Source: Granulosicoccus sp. (GTDB taxonomy: Bacteria > Pseudomonadota > Gammaproteobacteria > Granulosicoccales > Granulosicoccaceae). Taken from it: a stretch of 49,560 bases of DNA. Below the pieces are notes generated by a model. The model worked only from the letters and a program-made list of their open reading frames with translations, searched no databases and was not told the DNA's origin. The translations under genes were made by a program, and so were the position numbers. Shown here piece after piece: positions 6,338 through 45,240 of this stretch. Each line of letters opens with the position of its first letter. Within the stretch, counting starts at the first letter, position 1. The DNA lies in NCBI GenBank assembly GCA_013002205.1, contig JABDKN010000078.1, positions 1-49,560 of the forward strand. Reading direction: 5' to 3'.

Positions 6338-8032
6338 ATGAACCGGCAAGTAAAAGCCAGACCGATCATTGCCATGATAGGGGATGAGTTATCGGCCTTC
6401 CAGAGGCCGATAGTGGCCTGCGTGAATCAGTGCCTTGGCAAAGCCGGATTCGGCCTGCTGTATGTATGCGGAGGCCCTCTGAAGCCAACCGCTGACTGGG
6501 ATGACAATGTGCCGGTAGCACGCAATGCCATCTATACCCTGACACGTGAGTATCCGGTCGACGGCTACATCGTCTTCACGGACTCCATCGGTAGCCACGC
6601 CACCATCGACTCGCTGGCGTGTTTCGTCAGGCATTATACTCACAGACCCGTGGTCTGCTATGGGCCGGGGCCGGACGAAGTGGCCTGCGTGCAGCTGGAT
6701 AACTACTCCTCCATGGTGAGCATGATGGAGCACATGACCAGTGATCCGCAACGCAGGCGATTCGTCTTTTTACGTGGCTATCCGGACTCACCCAGTTCCT
6801 CCGACAGGGAGCGCGCATTCCGGGACATACTCACTTCTCGTGGCATTCCGGTCGATGAGTCGCTTTTGCTGAATGGAAACTATCAACCGGTGGATGCGTT
6901 TGATGCAATGGATGCTCTGCTGGAGAGTACGCACGATATCGACGCTGTCGTTGCCGCCAATGATGACATGGCACAAAGCGCAATACATGCGCTGCTGAAA
7001 CACGGCTTGCAGATTCCGCAGCAAGTGATCGTGTCAGGATTTGATGACAGTGCTGCTGCTGATCGGTCGATTCCCTCGCTCACTACCGTACACTATTCTC
7101 AGGAAACCATGGCAAGGCAGGTTGTCGAGACCCTGCTGATGCAGATTGAGGCGACCGACGTCGACGTCCCCAGCAGGCGGGTGGTAACGGTTCCTGCAAA
7201 GATCGTGATTCGTGCATCGACCGAAAAACAGTTTCTGCCCTCCACCCTGGAAACTGAACATATCAGCGCTTTTGATGCTGCAAACTTCCGGGCAACCGTA
7301 TTGAAGAACCTGCAGGTGCTGAAAACTCCCCGGGGTTTGAAAGCCAGGGAGGTCGTCGACGATATCGTCTCCATGCTGGTCAACGGCACACGCTATAGCG
7401 GCTCCAGGCTGGAGTCCGCCCTGCGGCGACTGCATGACCGACCTGATGACGTGTACTGGTGGCGTCATCTTCACCAGCAGATAACGACGAATCTACAGCG
7501 ATGTAGCAGCGAGGGACAATCTCCAGACGCCCTGGCCCTCACAGCCTCCATCCTCGGACAGATTCACCAGACAACCTGGAAAGTGGAGAATGCGCTCAGC
7601 GTGGAGGATGCCCGCTATGTACAGGGCATACTGCAATTTCGCGCAAGGCTTGCACAGGTCAATTCCATTGCAGACCTATTGGCGCTGCTGAAAGTGATCA
7701 ATGAACAATTCCCCGTCAAGGCATCATTTCTCTGCCTCTATGAAACCGCGGGCGAATGTCCTGACAAGTCGACCAGGCTGCTGGCCCGGTGGCCTGAAGA
7801 CTGTGTCGATCACGACCTGCAGACATCTTTCCCGAGTACGGAAGTACTGCCGGACAACTACCTGCATTCGGAGTTCCCGGGGCCACTGGTGCTGCAACCC
7901 ATGTGTTCAGGTACGACCCAACTGGGTTATACCGTGCATGATCTCTCGGATGAACGGTATCCGGGCAAGTTGAATACCACGGCGCTTGCCGACAGTCTTG
8001 CCATCACTCTGTGGCGGCTGATGTCTGCCTGA
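6338..8032 (+). CDS. LacI-type periplasmic-binding-fold sensor protein lacking a helix-turn-helix
   Basis: The 564-residue protein starts directly with a type I periplasmic-binding fold of the LacI/GalR class. Residues 8-16 read RPIIAMIGD. Later comes DAVVAANDDMA, then GFDDSAAADRSIPSLTTVHY (from about residue 233), the signature of the LacI effector domain. There is no N-terminal helix-turn-helix and no signal peptide, so it should be cytosolic. Residues 300-564 form a second region of uncertain family: helical to about 430, then a GAF-like stretch (VNSIADLLALLKVINEQFPVK to the end). No GGDEF, kinase or DNA-binding output is visible. The perfect ribosome site and 13-base gap tie it to the kinase. 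It may present a small-molecule (perhaps sugar) signal to that kinase; this is inference. Confidence 0.75.
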   Translation: MNRQVKARPIIAMIGDELSAFQRPIVACVNQCLGKAGFGLLYVCGGPLKPTADWDDNVPVARNAIYTLTREYPVDGYIVFTDSIGSHATIDSLACFVRHYTHRPVVCYGPGPDEVACVQLDNYSSMVSMMEHMTSDPQRRRFVFLRGYPDSPSSSDRERAFRDILTSRGIPVDESLLLNGNYQPVDAFDAMDALLESTHDIDAVVAANDDMAQSAIHALLKHGLQIPQQVIVSGFDDSAAADRSIPSLTTVHYSQETMARQVVETLLMQIEATDVDVPSRRVVTVPAKIVIRASTEKQFLPSTLETEHISAFDAANFRATVLKNLQVLKTPRGLKAREVVDDIVSMLVNGTRYSGSRLESALRRLHDRPDDVYWWRHLHQQITTNLQRCSSEGQSPDALALTASILGQIHQTTWKVENALSVEDARYVQGILQFRARLAQVNSIADLLALLKVINEQFPVKASFLCLYETAGECPDKSTRLLARWPEDCVDHDLQTSFPSTEVLPDNYLHSEFPGPLVLQPMCSGTTQLGYTVHDLSDERYPGKLNTTALADSLAITLWRLMSA

Positions 8033-24604: not shown

Positions 24605-25768
24605 TCATCCACCGGACTTGCGCAGCAGGTTGCGCGATATGATGTGTCGCTGGATTTCCGAAGTGCCTTCCCATATCCGCTCGATACGCGCATCGCGCCA
24701 GATTCGCTCCAGCGGCAGCTCATCCATCAATCCCATGCCGCCATGAACCTGGATCGCTTCATCGGCCACCATCGCCAGCATTTCGGTCGCCTTGAGCTTG
24801 GCCATGGCCATGTCTGCATCAGTCACGGAGCCGTTGTCGTATTTCCATCCAGCTTCCAGAATCATCAGTTCAGCCGCCTTCATCTCGGTTGCCATATCTG
24901 CCAGCTTGAATGACACTCCCTGGAATTTACCAATACTCTGGCCGAACTGTTTCCTCTGCGCAGCGTATTCCACGGCGTGCCCGAATGCACGTTCTGCGCG
25001 GCCCAGACAGGTTGCACCGACCTGGAGACGTGTGGCGCCGAGCCAGCTGTTGGCCATGTCAAAACCCTTGTGCACGTCGCCCAGCCGCTGGCGGTCCGGT
25101 ATCCGACAATCGTCGAATTCGAGAATGGCATTGGTGTAGCCGCGATGTGAGACATTTCGATATCCGTTACGAACGTGGAAACCTGAGGTGCCCTTGTCGA
25201 CGAAAAACGCCGTGATCAGCTTCTTTCGACCACGATGTGTTTCCTCCTCGCCGGTAGCCATGAAGCAGATAGCGAAATCGGCAATGTCAGCATGCGATAT
25301 GAAGTGTTTGGTGCCGTTGAGTATCCAGTCGTCCCCATCACGTCGCGCACTGGCCTGCATGCCGCGAAGGTCGGAGCCTGCCCCGGGTTCGGACATCGCC
25401 AGGCAGTCCCAGGTCTCACCGGCCACACACGGTGCCAGGTACTTTTCGCGTTGTTCAGGCGTACCGGCACACAGGATATTGGAGGGCCGCGCCACGCAGG
25501 TCCAGTGCAGTGCATAGTTACTTCGACCCAGTTCCTTTTCGTAGAGAAGCCAGGTCAGCGTGTCCAGCCCCCCACCTCCATGTTCCGCCGGAATGTTGGC
25601 CGCATAGAGGCCGGCCTCGATGGCCTTGCGCTGCACATGGCGAACCAGGTCCATATCCAGTTGACCCGTACGCTCCACAGCGGACTCGTGCGGGTAGAGC
25701 TCTCGCTCTACAAAGGCGCGGGTAGTGTCGATGATCAGCGATTGCTCATGAGTCAATTCGAAGTTCAT
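24605..25768 (-). CDS. Acyl-CoA dehydrogenase, probable butyrobetainyl-CoA dehydrogenase
   Basis: The 387-residue FAD flavoenzyme has the acyl-CoA dehydrogenase signatures CLAMSEPGAGSDLRGM, the DWILNGTKHFISHA flavin loop, IQVHGGMGLMDELPLERIWRDARIERIWEGTSEIQ, and the catalytic base position E367. It resembles CaiA, which acts on crotonobetainyl/gamma-butyrobetainyl-CoA. In this aerobic-style operon it would oxidise gamma-butyrobetainyl-CoA to crotonobetainyl-CoA, feeding the CaiD-like hydratase. An electron-transferring flavoprotein must come from elsewhere. Its ATG overlaps the stop of the fusion gene upstream by 4 bases (ATGA), so translation is coupled. Confidence 0.8.
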   Translation of the reverse strand: MNFELTHEQSLIIDTTRAFVERELYPHESAVERTGQLDMDLVRHVQRKAIEAGLYAANIPAEHGGGGLDTLTWLLYEKELGRSNYALHWTCVARPSNILCAGTPEQREKYLAPCVAGETWDCLAMSEPGAGSDLRGMQASARRDGDDWILNGTKHFISHADIADFAICFMATGEEETHRGRKKLITAFFVDKGTSGFHVRNGYRNVSHRGYTNAILEFDDCRIPDRQRLGDVHKGFDMANSWLGATRLQVGATCLGRAERAFGHAVEYAAQRKQFGQSIGKFQGVSFKLADMATEMKAAELMILEAGWKYDNGSVTDADMAMAKLKATEMLAMVADEAIQVHGGMGLMDELPLERIWRDARIERIWEGTSEIQRHIISRNLLRKSGG

Positions 25769-27291
25769 GCGCGTGGTTGGCCTACGGCGCGCCCGGTGCC
25801 TTCGGGTGCAGGTAGAGCGGAATGCAGTTTGGCGATACTGGCCAGCTTGCTGGAGATCAGCGGAGAGGGCTCACAGGCGGCGCGGGTTTTCAGGGAGACA
25901 TGAATCAACATGTGTTCTCCAGTTGCCAGCAATCTTCCATCACCGTGATGCAAGCGGTGAAACAGGTGCATCTTCTTCCCCTCCCCCATCAATACCTGTG
26001 TCAGCGTATACACAGGCTCATTGACTGCAACCTCGTCCAGATGCCTGATGTGGGTCTCCGCCGTGAAATACGAACCACCTGATGCCATGTACTCGGCATC
26101 ACAACCGATCAGGCGCATGAACGCATCAGTAGCATCGCCAAAGCATTGCAGGTAACGTGCTTCATTCATGTGATTGTTGTAGTCCGTCCAGTCGGGAGGA
26201 ATACGACGCTCCATGGTCCGGATGGGCCGAGACAGATCGGGCTCGTTGCCTTCTGCACCGCTTGCTGCGTTTTGTCTGGCCCCTGCATCGAACAGTTTCT
26301 TCTCGTAATCGGCAAGCAGCAGGCCCGCCCCCCAGTTGTTGGCTTTCAGAGCCTGCAGTATGGCGACGAGATTGTCATCGCGAATACGTTCCAGTTCCCG
26401 GATATCAATATGGCCTGATTGCCGATCTGACTGTTCAGAGATCAATTCGACCAGATCCTCATCGAACTCGGGGACATCCATCAGCCGGCTCCAGGGCCAC
26501 TTCAGGCACGGCCCGAACTGTGCGAGAAAATGTCGCATGCCGGATTCACCACCAGCTATACGATAGGTTTCGAAGACGCCCATCTGGGCATAGCGCAAGC
26601 CGAACCCGAACCTGACGATATCATCCAGCTCTTCAGTCGTGGTAATACCATCCTTGATCAGCCACAGGGACTCGCGCCAGATGGCCTCCAGCAGACGATC
26701 GGCTACAAACGCCTCGATTTCGCGCCGAATATGAATCGGTTTCATTCCCAGAAAGGTATAGAATTCCAGCGCCCTGTCGATACTCTCGGCAGCGGTTCGC
26801 TGGCCACCAACGATTTCCACCACGGGCAACAGGTAAACCGGGTTGAAGGGATGCGCAACGATAAGCCTCTCCGGGCGCTGCATTCCTGCCTGAAGATCGG
26901 TGGGCATGATGCCGGACGTGGATGAGGCGAGAATGCTGTCAGCGGGTGCGAACCGTTCGATCTCCGCGTAGACCGACTGCTTGACATCCAGTCTCTCCGG
27001 CACGCTTTCGATGATCCACCGTGCCAGGCTGACTGCCTCTTTGATCGACGTGCAGAATTGCACTCTGCCCTTGTTCGGACGCTGGGCCATGGTGAGCTTT
27101 GCGTAGGCTCGTTCGGCATTCTCCAGTACGGCCTGAATGGCATCTCTGGCACCTGGCGCAGGATCGTAGAGCTTCACGGAGAGCCCGTTTTCTATTGCCC
27201 TGGCAATCCAGCCGGCACCGATGACGCCTCCGCCAATGCAGGCAATGTGATCGGACTTCAGGGTGGGATCCTGCGTGCCTGCCTTGCTCAC
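25765..27291 (-). CDS. cdhA: L-carnitine dehydrogenase fused to betainyl-CoA thioesterase
   Basis: The 508-residue protein has two parts. Residues 1-330 are a 3-hydroxyacyl-CoA-dehydrogenase-fold L-carnitine dehydrogenase, with the NAD motif IACIGGGVIGAGW at 16-28 and later MPTDLQAGMQRPERLIVAHPFNPVYLLP. From about 350 a hotdog thioesterase follows (DWTDYNNHMNEARYLQ, HIRHLDEV, GEHMLIHVSL). Carnitine dehydrogenase makes 3-dehydrocarnitine with NAD; the thioesterase releases glycine betaine from betainyl-CoA. In Pseudomonas these are separate CdhA and CdhB; the fused form is known in some proteobacteria. The start is a GTG (27291) whose GTGA overlaps the cdhC stop. Confidence 0.88.
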   Translation of the reverse strand: MSKAGTQDPTLKSDHIACIGGGVIGAGWIARAIENGLSVKLYDPAPGARDAIQAVLENAERAYAKLTMAQRPNKGRVQFCTSIKEAVSLARWIIESVPERLDVKQSVYAEIERFAPADSILASSTSGIMPTDLQAGMQRPERLIVAHPFNPVYLLPVVEIVGGQRTAAESIDRALEFYTFLGMKPIHIRREIEAFVADRLLEAIWRESLWLIKDGITTTEELDDIVRFGFGLRYAQMGVFETYRIAGGESGMRHFLAQFGPCLKWPWSRLMDVPEFDEDLVELISEQSDRQSGHIDIRELERIRDDNLVAILQALKANNWGAGLLLADYEKKLFDAGARQNAASGAEGNEPDLSRPIRTMERRIPPDWTDYNNHMNEARYLQCFGDATDAFMRLIGCDAEYMASGGSYFTAETHIRHLDEVAVNEPVYTLTQVLMGEGKKMHLFHRLHHGDGRLLATGEHMLIHVSLKTRAACEPSPLISSKLASIAKLHSALPAPEGTGRAVGQPRA

Positions 27292-28196
27292 TGCGGATCA
27301 CGCCTGACCAGATTCAGCTTCCTGCGCACCGCGGCTGGTCCCATCACCGTTGCGCCCATGGCCTCGATGATCGTCACTGCACGCTCGACCAACTCGGCAT
27401 TGGTGGCCAAGCGTCCCTTGCGCAGCATCAGGTTGTCTTCCAGACCGACTCTGACATTGCCACCGGCAAGCACCGATGCCGCCACGTAGGGCATTTCATT
27501 ACGTCCGAGCGAGAAGGCGGACCAGGTCCAGTCTCCAGGGACATTATTGACCATGGCCATGAAGGTATTCAAGTCATCCGGTGCACCCCACGGAACGCCC
27601 ATGCACAGTTGCACCAGAGCGTCGGGCCGCAGAACGCCTTCACTGACCAGTTGCCTGGCGAACCACAGGTGACCCGTATCAAACGCCTCGATTTCCGGCT
27701 TCACACCCAGTTCAGTCATGAGTCTGCCCATGGCGCGCAGCATGCCCGGAGTGTTCGTCATGACATAATCACTCTCGGCAAAATTCATCGTGCCGCAGTC
27801 CAGCGTACAGATTTCAGGAAGACAGGCCGCCACGTGTGCCAGTCGTTCACTTGCACCTGCCATATCCGTACCCGCCGCGAGTGGCAACGGCGCCTCGACA
27901 CCACCGAACACCAGGTCACCACCCATACCGGCTGTCAGGTTCAGCACCACATCAACTTCACTTTCCCTGATTCGTCGGGTAACCTCACGATAGAGTTCGA
28001 TATCGCGACGTGGAGCCCCGGTGTCCGGGTCACGGACATGGCAGTGAACGATGGCGGCGCCAGCCCTGGCAGCTGCAATGGCACTGCCAGCTATCTGTTC
28101 CGGTGAGCGAGGTACCTGCGGACTTTTATCCTCAGTGGCGCCCGAACCGGTGACCGCACAGGTGATAAACACATCGCGGTTCATTGACAGGGGCAT
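27288..28196 (-). CDS. cdhC: Beta-keto acid cleavage enzyme (BKACE), dehydrocarnitine-cleaving
   Basis: The 302-residue protein is a DUF849/BKACE TIM-barrel enzyme. Zinc ligands are visible as H51 and H53 in IVHCHVRDP and E253 in VGLEDNLML. GTMNF and NTPGMLRAMG are family blocks. The carnitine-type member (CdhC) condenses dehydrocarnitine with acetyl-CoA to give betainyl-CoA plus acetoacetate; the carnitine dehydrogenase immediately downstream supports that choice over 3-keto-5-aminohexanoate cleavage. I used the ATG at 28196, 8 bases after AGAGGA, rather than the TTG at 28199 or the ATG at 28184. It is the first gene of the carnitine operon. Confidence 0.88.
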   Translation of the reverse strand: MPLSMNRDVFITCAVTGSGATEDKSPQVPRSPEQIAGSAIAAARAGAAIVHCHVRDPDTGAPRRDIELYREVTRRIRESEVDVVLNLTAGMGGDLVFGGVEAPLPLAAGTDMAGASERLAHVAACLPEICTLDCGTMNFAESDYVMTNTPGMLRAMGRLMTELGVKPEIEAFDTGHLWFARQLVSEGVLRPDALVQLCMGVPWGAPDDLNTFMAMVNNVPGDWTWSAFSLGRNEMPYVAASVLAGGNVRVGLEDNLMLRKGRLATNAELVERAVTIIEAMGATVMGPAAVRRKLNLVRRDPQ

Positions 28197-28229
28197 CAAT
28201 CCAGTCCTCTTGTTGTTTATACTGCAGCC
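28197..28229. promoter_or_regulatory. 33-base divergent promoter region, carnitine operon / AGE isomerase
   Basis: The start codons of two divergent genes are only 33 bases apart. A TTATACT core reads TATACT (28218-28223) rightward, 6 bases before the plus-strand ATG, which would make that message nearly leaderless. Leftward it reads TATAAA, about 7 bases before the cdhC ribosome site. No good -35 element is visible in either direction. Confidence 0.35.
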
Positions 28230-29417
28230 ATGAACATACCCACCTTGCCCCAGTTTAGTTCAGCGAATTTCCTGCGTCAGCATATTCAGTCCATCCTTGA
28301 GTTCTACGAACCGCGCGTGCGTGCCGCCGACGGCGGATTCCATCAGTGTTTCCTCGACGATGGCACCGTTTACAACTCTGAATTACGCCATCTGGTCAGT
28401 TCAGCGCGGTTTGTCTTCAATTATGCCAGTGCCTACCGATTTCATGGCGCCGAACATCACCGCGAGTGGGCAGCCAGTGGATTCGAGTACCTGAAAAGGC
28501 TGCACCGGCAACCGCAAGGCCACTATGCCTGGGTCATCGAAGATGGCAACGTGACTGACGGTCGAGCCATGGCCTATGGACATGCTTTCGTGATGCTGGC
28601 TGCCTCCAGTTGCGTGCAGGCCGGCATCACGGACGCAGCGGGAACGATCGCCGACGTCTGGGACTTGATGGAAGAGTTGTTCTGGGACGCTGACGGCAAG
28701 GCCTATGCGGATGAGCGAGACAGCACATTGCAGGTATTGGATTCCTACCGCGGACAAAATGCCAACATGCACAGTTGCGAGGCGTTACTGGCTGCCTTTC
28801 AGGCGACTGAAGATGTCCGTTACCTGGAGCGAGCAGAGATGCTGGCGGAGCGTTTTGCAGTGGAACTGGCCGGCCTCAATGACGGCTTGATCTGGGAGCA
28901 CTATGACCGGCACTGGCAGTGTGACATGCAATACAACATCGACAAGCCGGATGACTTGTTCAAGCCCTGGGGATTCCAGCCAGGCCATCAACTCGAATGG
29001 TGCAAGTTGCTGCTTGCATTGAACCAGGAACGCGCCAATCCAACATGGGTGCAGCGTGCCACCGAACTCTACGATGTCGCGATGACTCGTGGGTGGGATC
29101 CGGAATTCGGCGGCCTGGTCTATGGGTTCGCCCCGGACGGTACATTCAGTGATGCATACAAATATTTCTGGGTGCATGCAGAAGCCTTTGCTGCCGCCTG
29201 GCGCCTGTACCGACAACACGGTGACGAGCGTTACCTTCAGGATTACAACCGCCTGTGGGAATACAGCTGGCGACACCTCATCGACCATGAACACGGTGCG
29301 TGGTTCCGTATTCGCACTCGTGAGGGTGCCCCAGTGGATAAACTGAAATCGCCTCCCGGAAAGACCGATTACCATACGATGGGAGCTTGCTGGGATGTAT
29401 TGTCTCAGCCAGTGTGA
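28230..29417 (+). CDS. AGE-family sugar isomerase, mannose isomerase/YihS-like
   Basis: The 395-residue (alpha/alpha)6-barrel protein belongs to the N-acylglucosamine 2-epimerase superfamily. The three histidines that matter in YihS and mannose isomerases are in place: H181 in ANMHSCEALL, H253 in FQPGHQLEW, and H382 in DYHTMGACWDV. The ATP-binding insert of renal-type epimerase is not visible, which favours aldose-ketose isomerisation (mannose/fructose) over N-acylglucosamine epimerisation. It is cytosolic. The ATG at 28230 has no clear ribosome site; a leaderless message is possible. It points away from the carnitine operon and has no obvious sugar partner next to it. Confidence 0.82.
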   Translation: MNIPTLPQFSSANFLRQHIQSILEFYEPRVRAADGGFHQCFLDDGTVYNSELRHLVSSARFVFNYASAYRFHGAEHHREWAASGFEYLKRLHRQPQGHYAWVIEDGNVTDGRAMAYGHAFVMLAASSCVQAGITDAAGTIADVWDLMEELFWDADGKAYADERDSTLQVLDSYRGQNANMHSCEALLAAFQATEDVRYLERAEMLAERFAVELAGLNDGLIWEHYDRHWQCDMQYNIDKPDDLFKPWGFQPGHQLEWCKLLLALNQERANPTWVQRATELYDVAMTRGWDPEFGGLVYGFAPDGTFSDAYKYFWVHAEAFAAAWRLYRQHGDERYLQDYNRLWEYSWRHLIDHEHGAWFRIRTREGAPVDKLKSPPGKTDYHTMGACWDVLSQPV

Positions 29418-34683: not shown

Positions 34684-35655
34684 GTGAAATCACTCGACAA
34701 GAAGCTGAAACATATCAAGGGGGGAAAATACAAACCTTCCGAGTTTATCATTGCCGATGCCAAGGACGGTGATATGGCATTTGGTGTCACTTCTCCGGGT
34801 CCTGCTGGCAAAGGCAGGTGGAAGTCGCGGGAAGACTACCTCGACGCCATGCAGCAGATGAGCGATTCCGGGCTGGTGGATATCATGTTGATGTCCGCCT
34901 CATCGGCGGAGATTCTCAAACAACGAGGAACCTTCAGCAAATCGCCGGTGACACCTGCTGTACGCATGAATGACACCACCGATATCTGGAATGCACGAGG
35001 CAGCTGCTATCGCCAGTATCCATCGGAGCCATTTGCCACCGCTGACCTGCAGGCGGTCACGCCACTGTGTAAGCTCGGCCTGTATTCGATGACGTTCTCA
35101 AATGACTTGCAGGCGGACAAGGCCAGCCTCCAGGCCTATGGTGAATTCCGACTGGCCTGCCGCGAAACCGGATTTCGTCATTTCCTGGAAATATTCAATC
35201 CCGCCTTCGACATCGGTGTGGCTGATGCTGAACTGGGACACTATATAAACGACATGATCATCAAGGCATTGGCGGGCGTGACCCATGCCGATTACCCCCT
35301 GTTCCTGAAAATCCAGTTCAATGGAAGAGATGCCATGCAGGAGTTGACACACTACGACCCGTCGCGACTGGTTGCCGGTATTCTCGGCGGTGCGGCCGGT
35401 ACCACTCGAGACACCTTCGAGCTGGCCTTGCAGGCTGAGCAATCTGGTGCCAGAGTTGCGCTATTTGGAAGAAAGATAAATCGATCCGAATCACCAGTCA
35501 AGCTCGTGGAACTGATACGCAGGACTATAGAAAAGGATGTGAGCCCTGCGGAGGCAGTTCAGCAGTTTCATGCTCATCTGAAACAGGAAGGCATAAAGCC
35601 TCAGCGCAGTCTCAAGGATGATCTGAAGATCACCGAACCAATACTCAAACTGTAA
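34684..35655 (+). CDS. Aldolase-like TIM-barrel protein, uncharacterised
   Basis: I do not recognise a named family with certainty. The 323-residue protein looks like a class I (DhnA/FbaB-type) aldolase. Predicted strands end in motifs typical of that fold: FLKIQFNG with a candidate Schiff-base lysine K209, and a phosphate-site-like pair ILGGAAGTT (233-241) and GARVALFGRKI (256-265). Segments ADAKDGDMAFGVTSPGP and MLMSASSAEIL could be earlier barrel strands. The gene is read with a PfkB kinase 12 bases downstream, which fits a phosphorylated-sugar aldolase. The start is a GTG at 34684; the ribosome site is weak and the frame is open to 34639. Confidence 0.5.
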   Translation: MKSLDKKLKHIKGGKYKPSEFIIADAKDGDMAFGVTSPGPAGKGRWKSREDYLDAMQQMSDSGLVDIMLMSASSAEILKQRGTFSKSPVTPAVRMNDTTDIWNARGSCYRQYPSEPFATADLQAVTPLCKLGLYSMTFSNDLQADKASLQAYGEFRLACRETGFRHFLEIFNPAFDIGVADAELGHYINDMIIKALAGVTHADYPLFLKIQFNGRDAMQELTHYDPSRLVAGILGGAAGTTRDTFELALQAEQSGARVALFGRKINRSESPVKLVELIRRTIEKDVSPAEAVQQFHAHLKQEGIKPQRSLKDDLKITEPILKL

Positions 35656-35667
35656 TGCCATGTGCAA

Positions 35668-36675
35668 ATGAACAGACGTGGAATAATTTGCGCAGGTTGC
35701 TGGACCGTCGATCGCATCAAGCTGGTTGACAAATGGCCCGCCGAGGAAGAGCTGGCTCGAATCTTGGCCGTAGAACGGCAAGGTGGTGGATCTTCCCATA
35801 ACGTGGGTATAGACCTGTGTAAGCTCGACCCGACGCTCCCGGTTGCAACCATCGGATTACTTGGCCAGGACATCGATGGAGACTTCCTGTTTGACCAGGC
35901 AACCACGTGCGAAATGGATACCAGTCAATTGTGGCGAACTGCGGCAAGTGCCACTTCCTATACTGATGTGATCAGTGTAACTGACACCGGGAAGCGCACT
36001 TTTTTTCACTATCCTGGAGCCAATGACCTTCTCGAACCGCGACACTTCAGCTTTACCGGACGTCGCGAACGCATACTTCATCTTGGTTTGCTGAGCGTGC
36101 ACGCACTGATGGATGCAGACCACGACGAGGGCCACAATGGCTGGTCGAAGGTTCTGGAAGCGGCTCGATCAGCCGGCTTGAAAACCAGCATCGAGATGGT
36201 CTCCACAGATCGGCACAGAAACCGCCTGCTGGCAACGCCATGCCTGCCGCACCTGGACTACCTGATCGTCAATGATCAGGAAATAGGCGCCATTGCAGAC
36301 CTTCCTACACTGATCGATGGCAAGACGGATATCGACATCTGCCTGCAGGCAGCAGACCGGGTTCTCGCCAGCGGAAACATGAAGCTGGTGGCAGTACATT
36401 ACCCGACGGGTGCCGTTTGTATAACGAGATCCGGCGAGCGTCACGTGACCAGGTCACTGAAGGTGCCGAAATCCCGGATCAAGGGTACGGTGGGAGCAGG
36501 AGATGCGTTTGCTGCCGGGTTCCTCTACGCAATCCATGAGCAATGGAGTGTCGAGCAGGCGCTGGAGCTGGCACATGTGGTGGCTGCAGCAAGTTTACGA
36601 TCGCTGACCACGGTCGGTGCAGTCGGTTCGCTTGCACAATGTCGCCAATTTGCAGACGAACTCCGATCGGCTTGA
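35668..36675 (+). CDS. PfkB-family carbohydrate kinase
   Basis: The 335-residue ribokinase-fold protein has the N-terminal gly-rich entry QGGGSSHNVGIDL and the C-terminal ATP/anion-hole motif GTVGAGDAFAAGF with the catalytic Asp. The first signature GCWTVDRIKLVDKWP is of the PfkB type. Likely substrates are a sugar, sugar acid or sugar phosphate. A coupled aldolase-like gene 12 bases upstream suggests that the kinase makes the phosphorylated substrate that the aldolase splits, as in other KDG or tagatose-type routes. The GTG at 35662 is an alternative start. Confidence 0.85.
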   Translation: MNRRGIICAGCWTVDRIKLVDKWPAEEELARILAVERQGGGSSHNVGIDLCKLDPTLPVATIGLLGQDIDGDFLFDQATTCEMDTSQLWRTAASATSYTDVISVTDTGKRTFFHYPGANDLLEPRHFSFTGRRERILHLGLLSVHALMDADHDEGHNGWSKVLEAARSAGLKTSIEMVSTDRHRNRLLATPCLPHLDYLIVNDQEIGAIADLPTLIDGKTDIDICLQAADRVLASGNMKLVAVHYPTGAVCITRSGERHVTRSLKVPKSRIKGTVGAGDAFAAGFLYAIHEQWSVEQALELAHVVAAASLRSLTTVGAVGSLAQCRQFADELRSA

Positions 36676-38991: not shown

Positions 38992-40632
38992 ATGCTCGCC
39001 AGGCTGATAGTTGCGGTTTTTTTTCCCTTGTGTTGGTCTGCAGTCGTCGCCAACGATGTGTTCGTGGAGACCGGCGGAAAGTTGATCGTCGAAGCCGAAT
39101 CCGTTGCCGCATCAGGCGACTGGTCGCTGGAGCAAGCCATTCCCAATTACAAGGGCAGAGGCTACTACGTGTGGACAGGCCCGGACAACCTGGCTACCCA
39201 GGCTGCCCCGAGAGGAAATCCCATCACCTACCGCTTTCGCATCAATACGGCCGGAAACTATCAGTTCAGATGGCGCTCGCGCATTACTAAAGGTAGTAAT
39301 TCCACCGAACACAACGACAACTGGGTGCGATTTCCTACTGGACAGAACATTTCTGGACAACACGGTTTGAATGGCTGGACCAAGGTCTACATGAATCAGC
39401 TCAATAAGTGGTCCTGGGTCTCCAGCACAGTGGACAATGTCGGCAAACCCGTACGTCAGTATTTCAGTGCTGGAGAACACACGCTGCAGATATCCGGTCG
39501 CTCCAACGGACACGCCATCGATCGCTTCGCATTGTACCTTTACCAGAACGTGCCGTTTTCCGACGGTGCATTCGACACACTGCCGGAATCTTCGCGCAAT
39601 ACCAGCGTGCCGCTCACGCCGGAGCCCACGCCGGAGCCCGCGCCGGAGCCCACGGATGTTCCGCAGATCGGCCACACACATCCGGCCGATGCCTGTCTTG
39701 GCAATACGGTGTCACTGGCCGCCATCCGGGACGTTAACGTACTGAACGGATCAATCAGGGACACTGACAAACTGACCGTGGCCACCTATCAGCAGTACGC
39801 CTACATCACTTTCAACCTGGTGGATATACCGGCGCAGGCAAGTGATGTTGCGTTACAGATATACGCAGAACAGACCGGCCAATCAGTCACTTTCTCAGTT
39901 TTTCAGGGCAGTAGCTCAGCCTGGAGTGCTGATGGAGTCGTCGAACAGTTGCCTTACCCGTCTGTCAGGCTGGGGTCGAGTGAGCTGGCCCTGTTCACTG
40001 AGGGCTTTCGAGTGGTAAATCTGGACGCGGAGCTGTTTGTTCGCAATGAAGTGACTCTGGTGCTCGCGCTCCAGGATGGCAGCAGCAATGTACTGTTACG
40101 CTCATCCGAAACGGCATTTGACCCCCGTTTGAAAATCACTGGAACCAGCGACTTCTGCCGCCAATACGATGCGAACAGGCGTGCAAGAGTGGCGACAGAG
40201 GAAGTGCAAGAGTCCGATGACGCCAACACAGCCATCGCGGCCGACCCACCAGGTCCTGAGTCTTCGGACGAAACCGCCACAGCTTACGATGACCTTCCCG
40301 GCACGGACACCTCAGCAACAGGCACGACTGAATCCGGCACCACTGAATCCGGCAACACCGATGTCCAGACTGTCCTCCAGAGTGGTGGCAATGACCCTCA
40401 GCCCGGCTCAACCCTGGGACAGGACTCGCCGTTCGATCCCGTGCAGACAGTCGATGAAGCGGCCGTTGATGTGATGACCCCGGAATCTGCACCGATGATG
40501 TCTCGCGGGAGTCTCAGCCGCGAGATATTCCTGTTCCTGCTTGTGGCGTGGGCAGGCAGAGCACATCGTCAGTTCGTCCGAGGAAAGTCTCGCCTTCAAC
40601 GCTCCGGAAGCATTGGACTAAAGCACGCGTGA
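38992..40632 (+). CDS. Secreted modular protein with carbohydrate-binding-like domains and C-terminal anchor
   Basis: The 546-residue protein has a signal peptide (MLARLIVAVFFPLCWSAVVA, cleaved after A20). A beta-rich domain at about 21-195 resembles a carbohydrate-binding module (EAESVAASGDW, YVWTGPDN, GEHTLQISGRSNGHAIDRFALY). A linker TPEPTPEPAPEPTD follows (about 208-222), then a second beta domain at about 226-375 of DNRLRE/CBM96-like type (NTVSLAAIRDVNVLNGSIRDTDKLTV). An acidic, Thr/Ser/Gly-rich stalk contains TESGTTESGNT repeats. The end is GSLS, a hydrophobic patch (EIFLFLLVAWAG) and a basic tail. That ending resembles C-terminal sorting signals of the GlyGly-CTERM type, though shorter. 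It overlaps the convergent hemN stop by 15 bases. It may be an extracellular glycan-binding surface protein. Confidence 0.65.
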   Translation: MLARLIVAVFFPLCWSAVVANDVFVETGGKLIVEAESVAASGDWSLEQAIPNYKGRGYYVWTGPDNLATQAAPRGNPITYRFRINTAGNYQFRWRSRITKGSNSTEHNDNWVRFPTGQNISGQHGLNGWTKVYMNQLNKWSWVSSTVDNVGKPVRQYFSAGEHTLQISGRSNGHAIDRFALYLYQNVPFSDGAFDTLPESSRNTSVPLTPEPTPEPAPEPTDVPQIGHTHPADACLGNTVSLAAIRDVNVLNGSIRDTDKLTVATYQQYAYITFNLVDIPAQASDVALQIYAEQTGQSVTFSVFQGSSSAWSADGVVEQLPYPSVRLGSSELALFTEGFRVVNLDAELFVRNEVTLVLALQDGSSNVLLRSSETAFDPRLKITGTSDFCRQYDANRRARVATEEVQESDDANTAIAADPPGPESSDETATAYDDLPGTDTSATGTTESGTTESGNTDVQTVLQSGGNDPQPGSTLGQDSPFDPVQTVDEAAVDVMTPESAPMMSRGSLSREIFLFLLVAWAGRAHRQFVRGKSRLQRSGSIGLKHA

Positions 40633-44211: not shown

Positions 44212-45240
44212 TCAGGATTCCGAGGACCTGGCCCACAGGTTGATATCCTCTTCACTGGCAGCGGCATCTATTCGGTCAAGTTCGGATTGAGTGAATTCCA
44301 GATTGTCGACAGCTCTTGCACACTGTACGACCTGTTCAGGCTTCGATGCACCGATCAGCGCAGTGGTGATGCCCTCGTTGCGCAATACCCAGGCAATTGC
44401 CATCTGCGCCAGGCTCTGTCCCCGCGAAGCGGCAATGTCGTTCAATGCCCTGATACTCTGGATGGCGCGCTCGCTGACGAAGGATGGACTGAGCGACTTG
44501 CCCTGTGTGGCCCGACTCCCCTCCGGGATACCGTTCAGATACTTGTCAGTCAACATGCCCTGAGCCAGTGGCGTGAAGGCGATGGAACCGATACCCAGTT
44601 CCTGCAGAGTCTCTTTCAGGCCGTCACGCTCTACCCAGCGATTGAGGATGTTGTAACTGGGCTGGTGAATCAGACAGGGAGTTCCCAGACTCTTCAGGAT
44701 TGCTGCAGCCTTCCGGGTACATTCGGAGTTGTAGGAAGAAATGCCGGCATACAACGCCTTGCCGGATCGCACAATATGATCCAGTGCACCCATGGTCTCC
44801 TCCAGCGGAGTGTCCGGGTCGAAGCGATGCGAATAAAACACATCCACATAGTCCAGTCCCATGCGCTTGAGGCTTTGATCACACGAGGCAATCAGGTATT
44901 TGCGACTGCCCATCTCGCCGTAGGGTCCCGGCCACATGAGATAACCTGCCTTGGAGGATATTATCAGCTCATCGCGATAGCCTTTCAGCTCATCGCGGAG
45001 AATCTGCCCGAACACCTCTTCAGCCGAGCCTGGAGGCGGGCCATAATTATTGGCCAGATCGAAGTGGGTAATACCCGCATCGAAGGCGGCATGACAGATC
45101 GCGCGCTGAGTCTTGAAGGCGACATCATGACCGAAGTTGTGCCACAACCCCAGTGAAATCGCCGGCAGCAACAGCCCTGACTGCCCACAGCGGCGGTATT
45201 GCATATTGTCATAACGATTTTCGGCTGCCTGATAACTCAT
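44212..45240 (-). CDS. gpr: Aldo/keto reductase, L-glyceraldehyde-3-phosphate reductase-like
   Basis: The 342-residue protein has the aldo/keto reductase barrel with the catalytic tetrad visible: Asp and Tyr in FDLANNYGPPPG, Lys in SSKAGYLMWPG and His in FYSHRFD. The segment PGPYGEMGSRKYLIASCDQSLKRMGLDYVDVFYSHR is characteristic of YghZ/Gpr enzymes, which reduce methylglyoxal and L-glyceraldehyde-3-phosphate with NADPH. It is in the cytosol and detoxifies. Its stop is separated from the preceding convergent gene by the hairpin at 44055. Confidence 0.9.
   Translation of the reverse strand: MSYQAAENRYDNMQYRRCGQSGLLLPAISLGLWHNFGHDVAFKTQRAICHAAFDAGITHFDLANNYGPPPGSAEEVFGQILRDELKGYRDELIISSKAGYLMWPGPYGEMGSRKYLIASCDQSLKRMGLDYVDVFYSHRFDPDTPLEETMGALDHIVRSGKALYAGISSYNSECTRKAAAILKSLGTPCLIHQPSYNILNRWVERDGLKETLQELGIGSIAFTPLAQGMLTDKYLNGIPEGSRATQGKSLSPSFVSERAIQSIRALNDIAASRGQSLAQMAIAWVLRNEGITTALIGASKPEQVVQCARAVDNLEFTQSELDRIDAAASEEDINLWARSSES

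Follow-up and report, generated by a model that had tools for sequence, protein, structure and literature searches.

A predicted class I ketose-1-phosphate aldolase of a new family and its partner kinase of the LmuK clade in Granulosicoccus and other bacteria

Human ketohexokinase and aldolase B turn a ketose into its 1-phosphate and the latter into dihydroxyacetone phosphate (DHAP) and an aldehyde. By annotation, YihT (6-deoxy-6-sulfofructose-1-phosphate aldolase) splits a ketose-1-phosphate made by the PfkB kinase YihV. In EHEC the genes lmuKAIZYX serve lyxose and mannose use and LmuK has fructose kinase activity, as stated in the accessible part of the original report (PMC10128022); its authors model a path of isomerase, kinase and aldolase, and both lmuK and lmuA are dispensable for growth on lyxose. 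The three-gene clusters of DrdA contain a class II aldolase and carry out chemistry of a similar kind, as far as the accessible portion of their description goes (PMC6079011). Here we describe a gene pair for which we propose chemistry of this known kind, i.e., that of LmuK and LmuA as modelled, of YihV and YihT, of the liver enzymes and of the DrdA clusters. The aldolase family itself is new to the Pfam and NCBIfam copies that we searched, in which no model matches it.

The window, that is the whole stretch of 49,560 nucleotides that was analyzed, is part of a Granulosicoccus genome of 4.46 Mb that is 98.7% complete. On its forward strand lie the gene of an orphan class I aldolase-fold protein of 323 amino acids (34684–35655) and, just downstream, that of a PfkB-family kinase (35662–36675 with a GTG start, or 35668–36675 with an ATG). 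The open frame of the first gene begins upstream, at a TTG (34639), and the GTG at 34684 was taken as its start because family members begin at this position. For the kinase, ATG 35668 is the likely start since it agrees with the N-terminus of LmuK in sequence comparison; the gap after the aldolase stop is then 12 bases, and 6 with GTG 35662. With the ATG, the first-pass annotation, made from the letters alone, was right in describing an aldolase-like frame with a PfkB kinase 12 bases downstream, and K209 and the motifs GGAAGTT (235–241) and FGRK (261–264) lie in the aldolase where it had placed them. The GAGD motif of the kinase is found at residues 278–281 of the GTG-started frame. A scan for promoters and terminators gave no more than chance would, and neither a transporter nor a PF07385 isomerase adjoins the pair within the window.

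The aldolase was detected in 218 matching stretches of genome contigs. We used the best 80 of the 218 for context, so the locus contexts are biased to close relatives. These best 80 span Granulosicoccaceae, Alphaproteobacteria, Acidimicrobiia, Dormibacterota MAGs, Desulfopila and others, the closest named relatives among them being Granulosicoccus MAGs with 77% identity. Some redundancy is present, as loci L002–L014 and some of L015–L094 are the same contigs drawn from two collections. Besides, gene calls in the GC-rich loci, produced by a simple script, are rough and neighbour counts therefore rest on tblastn. The distribution is patchy, with the aldolase present in 4 of 398 genomes in a phylum sample, 12 of 199 of one family and, by genome search, 14 of 57 relatives. 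It also occurs in 47 of 72,556 plasmid records, mostly from Rhizobiaceae; in the 40 plasmid records listed it is annotated as "hypothetical protein" (22) or has no annotation there (18).

Pfam gave no credible match for any of 68 members of the family, and PF01791 (DeoC/LacD) matched none of the 68 even at E ≤ 1. NCBIfam returned only C-terminal matches to LsrF and ADH synthase, all far under the cut-offs of these equivalog models (23 of 297, 20.8 of 241 and 12.6 of 299 bits). The early impression was likewise of a protein that fits no recognised named aldolase. PHROGs yielded nothing usable, and phmmer searches of the PDB gave chance matches only with the single sequence and a C-terminal match to LsrF with the family profile. 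Literature searches found no paper on this aldolase family, which is weak evidence given their partial coverage.

For structure prediction, AlphaFold2 was run on an alignment (A1) of 68 of the 81 aldolase sequences, from which near-copies had been removed by hand. The result was a confident barrel (pLDDT 93.2, pTM 0.92), with eight strands by hand count (22–26, 67–70, 90–94, 131–137, 165–171, 208–210, 231–235 and 258–261). When compared to solved structures with Foldseek and VIA-align, class I DHAP aldolases and their relatives ranked first: ADH synthase of M. jannaschii (Z 24.1), LsrF (23.3), an archaeal FBP aldolase (22.7), a sulfohexulose-1-phosphate aldolase (8tnf, 21.5), YihT and LacD (20.7 each) and animal FBP aldolases (around 19). 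The barrel-like strands read from the sequence at first pass thus correspond to a predicted TIM barrel. K209, the residue put forward there as a candidate Schiff-base lysine, falls on predicted strand 6 (208–210) and is invariant, both over the 81 loci (81 of 81) and over a set of distinct sequences (109 of 109). K27, E169, G235, G236, G262, R263 and K264 do not vary in the latter set either, although the sequences are related and the counts are not independent. Neither of the two checks that the first-pass annotation had set for itself, on the fold and on the conservation of K209, went against its reading. Only identical sequences had been merged to reach these 109, and two of them contain a stop.

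Comparison of A1 with LsrF by hhalign (probability 83%, 87 columns) pairs K209 with LsrF K203, G235-G236 with G226-G227 and G262-R263 with G253-R254. In the LsrF structure Lys203 is beside the ligand, and G226-G227 and G253-R254, together with His58, contact the phosphate, according to the section of the structural report that was available (PMC2728841). By alignment, then, the predicted site formed by the phosphate-site-like GGAAGTT and FGRK agrees with the phosphate residues of LsrF, and K209 is predicted to be the Schiff-base lysine, with G235-G236 and G262-R263 as the predicted phosphate site. A second alignment (A2) of five DeoC/LacD-type aldolases plus LsrF gave the same register over 209 columns, which is not independent of the former because A2 includes LsrF. 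For YihT (probability 0.1) and FbaB (0.7), hhalign found no sequence relation to A1. LsrF and ADH synthase, both of PF01791, resemble the window aldolase in fold (Z 23–24), in the strand-6 lysine and in the phosphate-site residues, but they share no more than 13% identity with it and differ after strand 1. Specifically, D-H-G is invariant here in A2, as in LsrF and its relatives, and is absent from the A1 family, where D25-A26-K27-D28-G29-D30 is invariant instead. Since fold and site agree with LsrF while the comparisons with Pfam, YihT and FbaB fail, the family appears to work on a class I scaffold and yet to lie outside PF01791 in its modelled form.

In 65 of 81 loci the kinase gene follows that of the aldolase in the same orientation and at less than 400 bp, with a median spacing of 10 bases from the aldolase stop to the first aligned kinase residue. 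In another 9 loci, all from marine alphaproteobacterial genomes, the related kinase is convergent with the aldolase and adjoins a D-lyxose isomerase. One of the remaining loci stops at a contig edge and six have no related kinase nearby; in L027 (genome G028), which was counted among the last, the kinase was found on another contig. This conserved-neighbour analysis confirms that the 323-residue protein and the PfkB kinase are a real and recurrent pair. Across the 57 relatives, all 14 genomes with the aldolase carry the kinase and just one other does (G033). Restricted to the 36 family genomes, the kinase is present in 14/14 with the aldolase vs. 1/22 without (Fisher p = 4e-9, uncorrected for relatedness). 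Adjacency and co-occurrence together strongly support that both proteins act jointly.

All 98 aligned kinases contain the PfkB motif GAGD. BLASTP of the window kinase against LmuK of Citrobacter gave 35% identity over 328 amino acids. Its best NCBIfam match was TIGR04382 (IolC), at 64.3 bits against a cut-off of 300 and with ribokinase models scoring similarly, and the model for prokaryotic ketohexokinases matched at E 0.06 only. We built an unrooted tree of 51 rows, with long outgroup branches, that included 25 aldolase-linked kinases hand-picked to span the groups and eight other PfkB kinases (E. coli FruK, PfkB, RbsK, KdgK, YihV and YegV plus two locus kinases). The aldolase-linked, LmuK and LyxI-linked kinases came together, separated from these eight by a branch with support 100/99. 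The 25 aldolase-linked kinases form one side of a branch (100/99), and the Persicobacter kinase is next to them. Judged by this tree, the window kinase belongs to the LmuK clade.

The lmuKAI genes of E. coli O157:H7 are like the window pair in that the same kinase clade sits next to an aldolase, and some loci, such as L042 of Desulfopila, share comparable genes for a transporter and an isomerase. However, LmuA is a class II enzyme unrelated to the class I family of the window, and the window has neither LmuI nor an adjoining transporter. All seven enterobacterial loci examined contain LmuX, LmuY, LmuZ, LmuI, the class II LmuA and LmuK, and two other loci, from Citrobacter (L101) and Persicobacter (L100), combine an isomerase, a class II aldolase and the kinase. 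In Desulfopila (L042), homologues of LmuX, LmuY, LmuZ and LmuI (51–61% identity) are found with a window-type aldolase and no LmuA, while L144 combines a window-type pair with LmuX/Y/Z-like genes and with AraB and AraD, both over their cut-offs. LmuI homologues are present in 12 of the 81 related loci and LmuA homologues in none of the 81. The genome to which the window belongs has no PF07385 isomerase, and its one PF01116 gene, a class II aldolase over the cut-off, is on another contig. A third situation was found in seven loci (L165–L171), in which an LmuK-like kinase has a PF07385-type isomerase beside it (6/7) and a class I aldolase of the DeoC/LacD type in its vicinity (5/7); the four of these aldolases that were scanned all belong to PF01791. 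As one kinase clade is paired with three aldolase families, the product of the kinase is very probably an aldolase substrate. YihT and LacD are class I barrel aldolases like the window protein, but no sequence relation to YihT was found and the window kinase is outside the YihV branch. The human enzymes share the proposed chemistry and differ in aldolase family.

Two observations on this group of kinases can be added. The operon type of L165–L171, which we did not find described, consists of a PF07385-type isomerase, an LmuK-like kinase, a DeoC/LacD-type aldolase and a Gfo/Idh/MocA oxidoreductase, with RbsABC-like transport genes additionally in L165 and L169. A Klebsiella plasmid (L102, 4439–9008) carries the transporter and LmuK without isomerase or aldolase, and AbiEi/AbiEii-type genes are annotated just downstream.

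A different gene context appeared when 23 further aldolase loci from plasmids and genomes were inspected: 10 have an adjoining PfkB kinase, 8 a GlpD-like context and 5 neither. These eight loci (L095, L097, L105, L106, L152, L154, L155 and L156) have a GlpD-like FAD dehydrogenase instead of the adjoining PfkB kinase, accompanied by sugar ABC genes, and an FGGY kinase in the gene group of seven of them; in L155 the only FGGY-like match is about 8 kb away. In L095, the FGGY kinase falls short of the xylulokinase cut-off and the GlpD-like protein of that for GlpD. Enzymes of the GlpD type oxidise the carbon next to the one that bears the phosphate, and for this reason the FGGY kinase and the GlpD-like dehydrogenase together would make a ketose-1-phosphate out of a polyol, for which EryA and EryB of erythritol use provide a parallel. 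It is mainly because the PfkB and GlpD-like routes converge that we propose a ketose-1-phosphate as the substrate common to both, which narrows the class of likely substrates to these compounds. In L049, L145 and L149 the pair is also flanked by a polyol dehydrogenase of the sorbitol-dehydrogenase family, and an aldehyde dehydrogenase was found directly downstream of the aldolase in L157, with another one in L155.

From the computed fold, the conserved site, the gene coupling and the kinase clade, we propose with a probability of about 0.68 that the pair is a new module of class I ketose-1-phosphate aldolase and kinase that gives DHAP and an aldehyde. The kinase would transfer the gamma-phosphate of ATP to a ketose, most likely D-fructose, at what we infer to be the C1 hydroxyl. 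The aldolase would hold the phosphate with G235-G236 and G262-R263, a Schiff base would form between K209 and the C2 carbonyl of the ketose-1-phosphate, and cleavage between C3 and C4 would release DHAP and an aldehyde, expected to be D-glyceraldehyde from a hexulose and glycolaldehyde from a pentulose. DHAP would enter glycolysis and the aldehyde would be oxidised or reduced by other enzymes. More tentatively, and as something that we would rather doubt, this could amount to a liver-type bacterial pathway spread by plasmids, in which ketoses and polyols become 1-phosphates through two unrelated kinase routes and are split by one class I aldolase family, with natural use of D-xylulose-1-phosphate included.

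Two genes of the window might contribute to this pathway. An AGE-superfamily sugar isomerase, D-mannose-isomerase-like (28230–29417, forward strand; 212 bits vs. a cut-off of 600), sits 5.3 kb upstream of the pair, also matches two solved AGE proteins at about 410 bits and is a possible source of fructose. Of the 121 loci searched, only two others have a homologue: L015, and L070, where it immediately follows the kinase. An aldo/keto reductase (44212–45240, reverse strand), over the cut-off of PRK09912 in the L-glyceraldehyde 3-phosphate reductase subfamily, could possibly handle the released aldehyde; a further 12 of these 121 loci have strong homologues (at least 58% identity), and in L017, L018 and L020 the gene is divergent from the aldolase at 71–94 bp.

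As for the substrate, D-fructose is the most likely, favoured by the D-mannose-isomerase-like AGE protein in the window and the fructose activity of LmuK, and D-xylulose is next, owing to contexts with XylA, XylB, D-lyxose isomerase and AraBD. In an alternative reading the natural substrate is a pentulose, D-xylulose (or D-ribulose), which would be converted to its 1-phosphate and then to DHAP and glycolaldehyde. Xylose isomerase is encoded immediately upstream in three of the 81 loci (L029, L030 and L068) and close by in a fourth (L064), xylulokinase exceeds the cut-off in L042 and L057, AraB and AraD accompany the pair in L144, D-lyxose isomerase can produce D-xylulose, and the own genome of the window carries XylA and XylB over their cut-offs. 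However, XylA, tried as a substrate marker in the 57 relatives, does not track the aldolase: it is present in 11/14 family genomes with the aldolase and 16/22 without (p = 1), and being common in both cases it does not decide the substrate. XylB would already deal with D-xylulose, the AGE isomerase of the window is D-mannose-isomerase-like, and LmuK is reported to be active on fructose in the accessible text on the lmu genes (PMC10128022). The xylulose-1-phosphate route is known as a synthetic or engineered pathway that also uses human ketohexokinase and aldolase B, judging from an excerpt of the relevant paper (PMC6995148), and our literature searches met the engineered form only. We consider a pentulose as the natural substrate possible but doubtful. 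The aldolase may also be broad in substrate or vary between subgroups. A sulfosugar was considered because of the Z of 21.5 with 8tnf; there were no sulfo-genes among the named neighbours and a literature search found nothing on it.

Other readings depart from a ketose-1-phosphate aldolase altogether. The nearest structures by Z, and the sole sequence-level matches (at the C-terminus), are LsrF and ADH synthase, which would suit an acyl-transfer, transaldol or synthase enzyme on a Schiff-base scaffold. But the Z values of FBP aldolases, YihT and LacD are only slightly lower, so the shared fold does not choose, and the window-type protein takes the place of LmuA, a class II aldolase, in lmu-like loci; such a role in vivo is unlikely. 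The first-pass annotation had the two proteins phosphorylate and split an unknown sugar or sugar acid, of which the joint action stands on adjacency and co-occurrence and the sugar acid is unlikely. The model would be IolC and IolJ, where 5-dehydro-2-deoxy-gluconate is converted to its 6-phosphate and cleaved, and IolC is indeed the best NCBIfam match of the kinase. Its 64 bits are, however, far under the cut-off of 300 and close to those of ribokinase models, the tree places the kinase with LmuK and away from the PfkB paralogues of E. coli, KdgK among them, and the named neighbour families hold ketose and polyol genes with no recurrent inositol or sugar-acid genes near the pair, making a sugar acid distinctly improbable. 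Finally, the similarity in fold would also be expected of an additional glycolytic fructose-1,6-bisphosphate aldolase, which the class II aldolase elsewhere in the same genome and the patchy distribution (4/398 and 14/57, see above) render extremely improbable.

A class I aldolase acting on ketose-1-phosphates thus remains our preferred reading, and it offers a predicted function for a protein family whose members, in the plasmid records listed, are annotated as hypothetical or left without annotation. The pairing of one kinase clade with three aldolase families suggests that what the kinase makes is what the aldolase takes. If true, this would add a DHAP-dependent class I aldolase, an enzyme type useful for carbon-carbon bond formation, and would help to explain the use of ketoses and polyols by marine and rhizobial bacteria.

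Several other genes were noted along the way. In the window, a carnitine catabolism block occupies 24605–28199 on the reverse strand, with a carnitine 3-dehydrogenase over the cut-off (749 vs. 592 bits) and, both below their cut-offs, a 3-keto-5-aminohexanoate-cleavage-like enzyme and an acyl-CoA dehydrogenase. On the forward strand, a 564-residue protein (6338–8029) has a LacI-type sugar-binding domain at about residues 107–295, the rest being free of Pfam matches at E ≤ 1e-5, and a 546-residue protein (38992–40632) has no Pfam match at this threshold; in L016, the DNA downstream of the pair includes a frame whose N-terminus looks similar to the latter by eye. The marine alphaproteobacterial loci L046–L057 have a large sugar island adjoining the aldolase, in which we found two apparent transketolase halves (by eye), a xylulokinase and a ribokinase over their cut-offs, a FucU-like mutarotase below its cut-off, a D-lyxose isomerase and, beside the aldolase, a P-loop kinase that we take to be FrcK-like.
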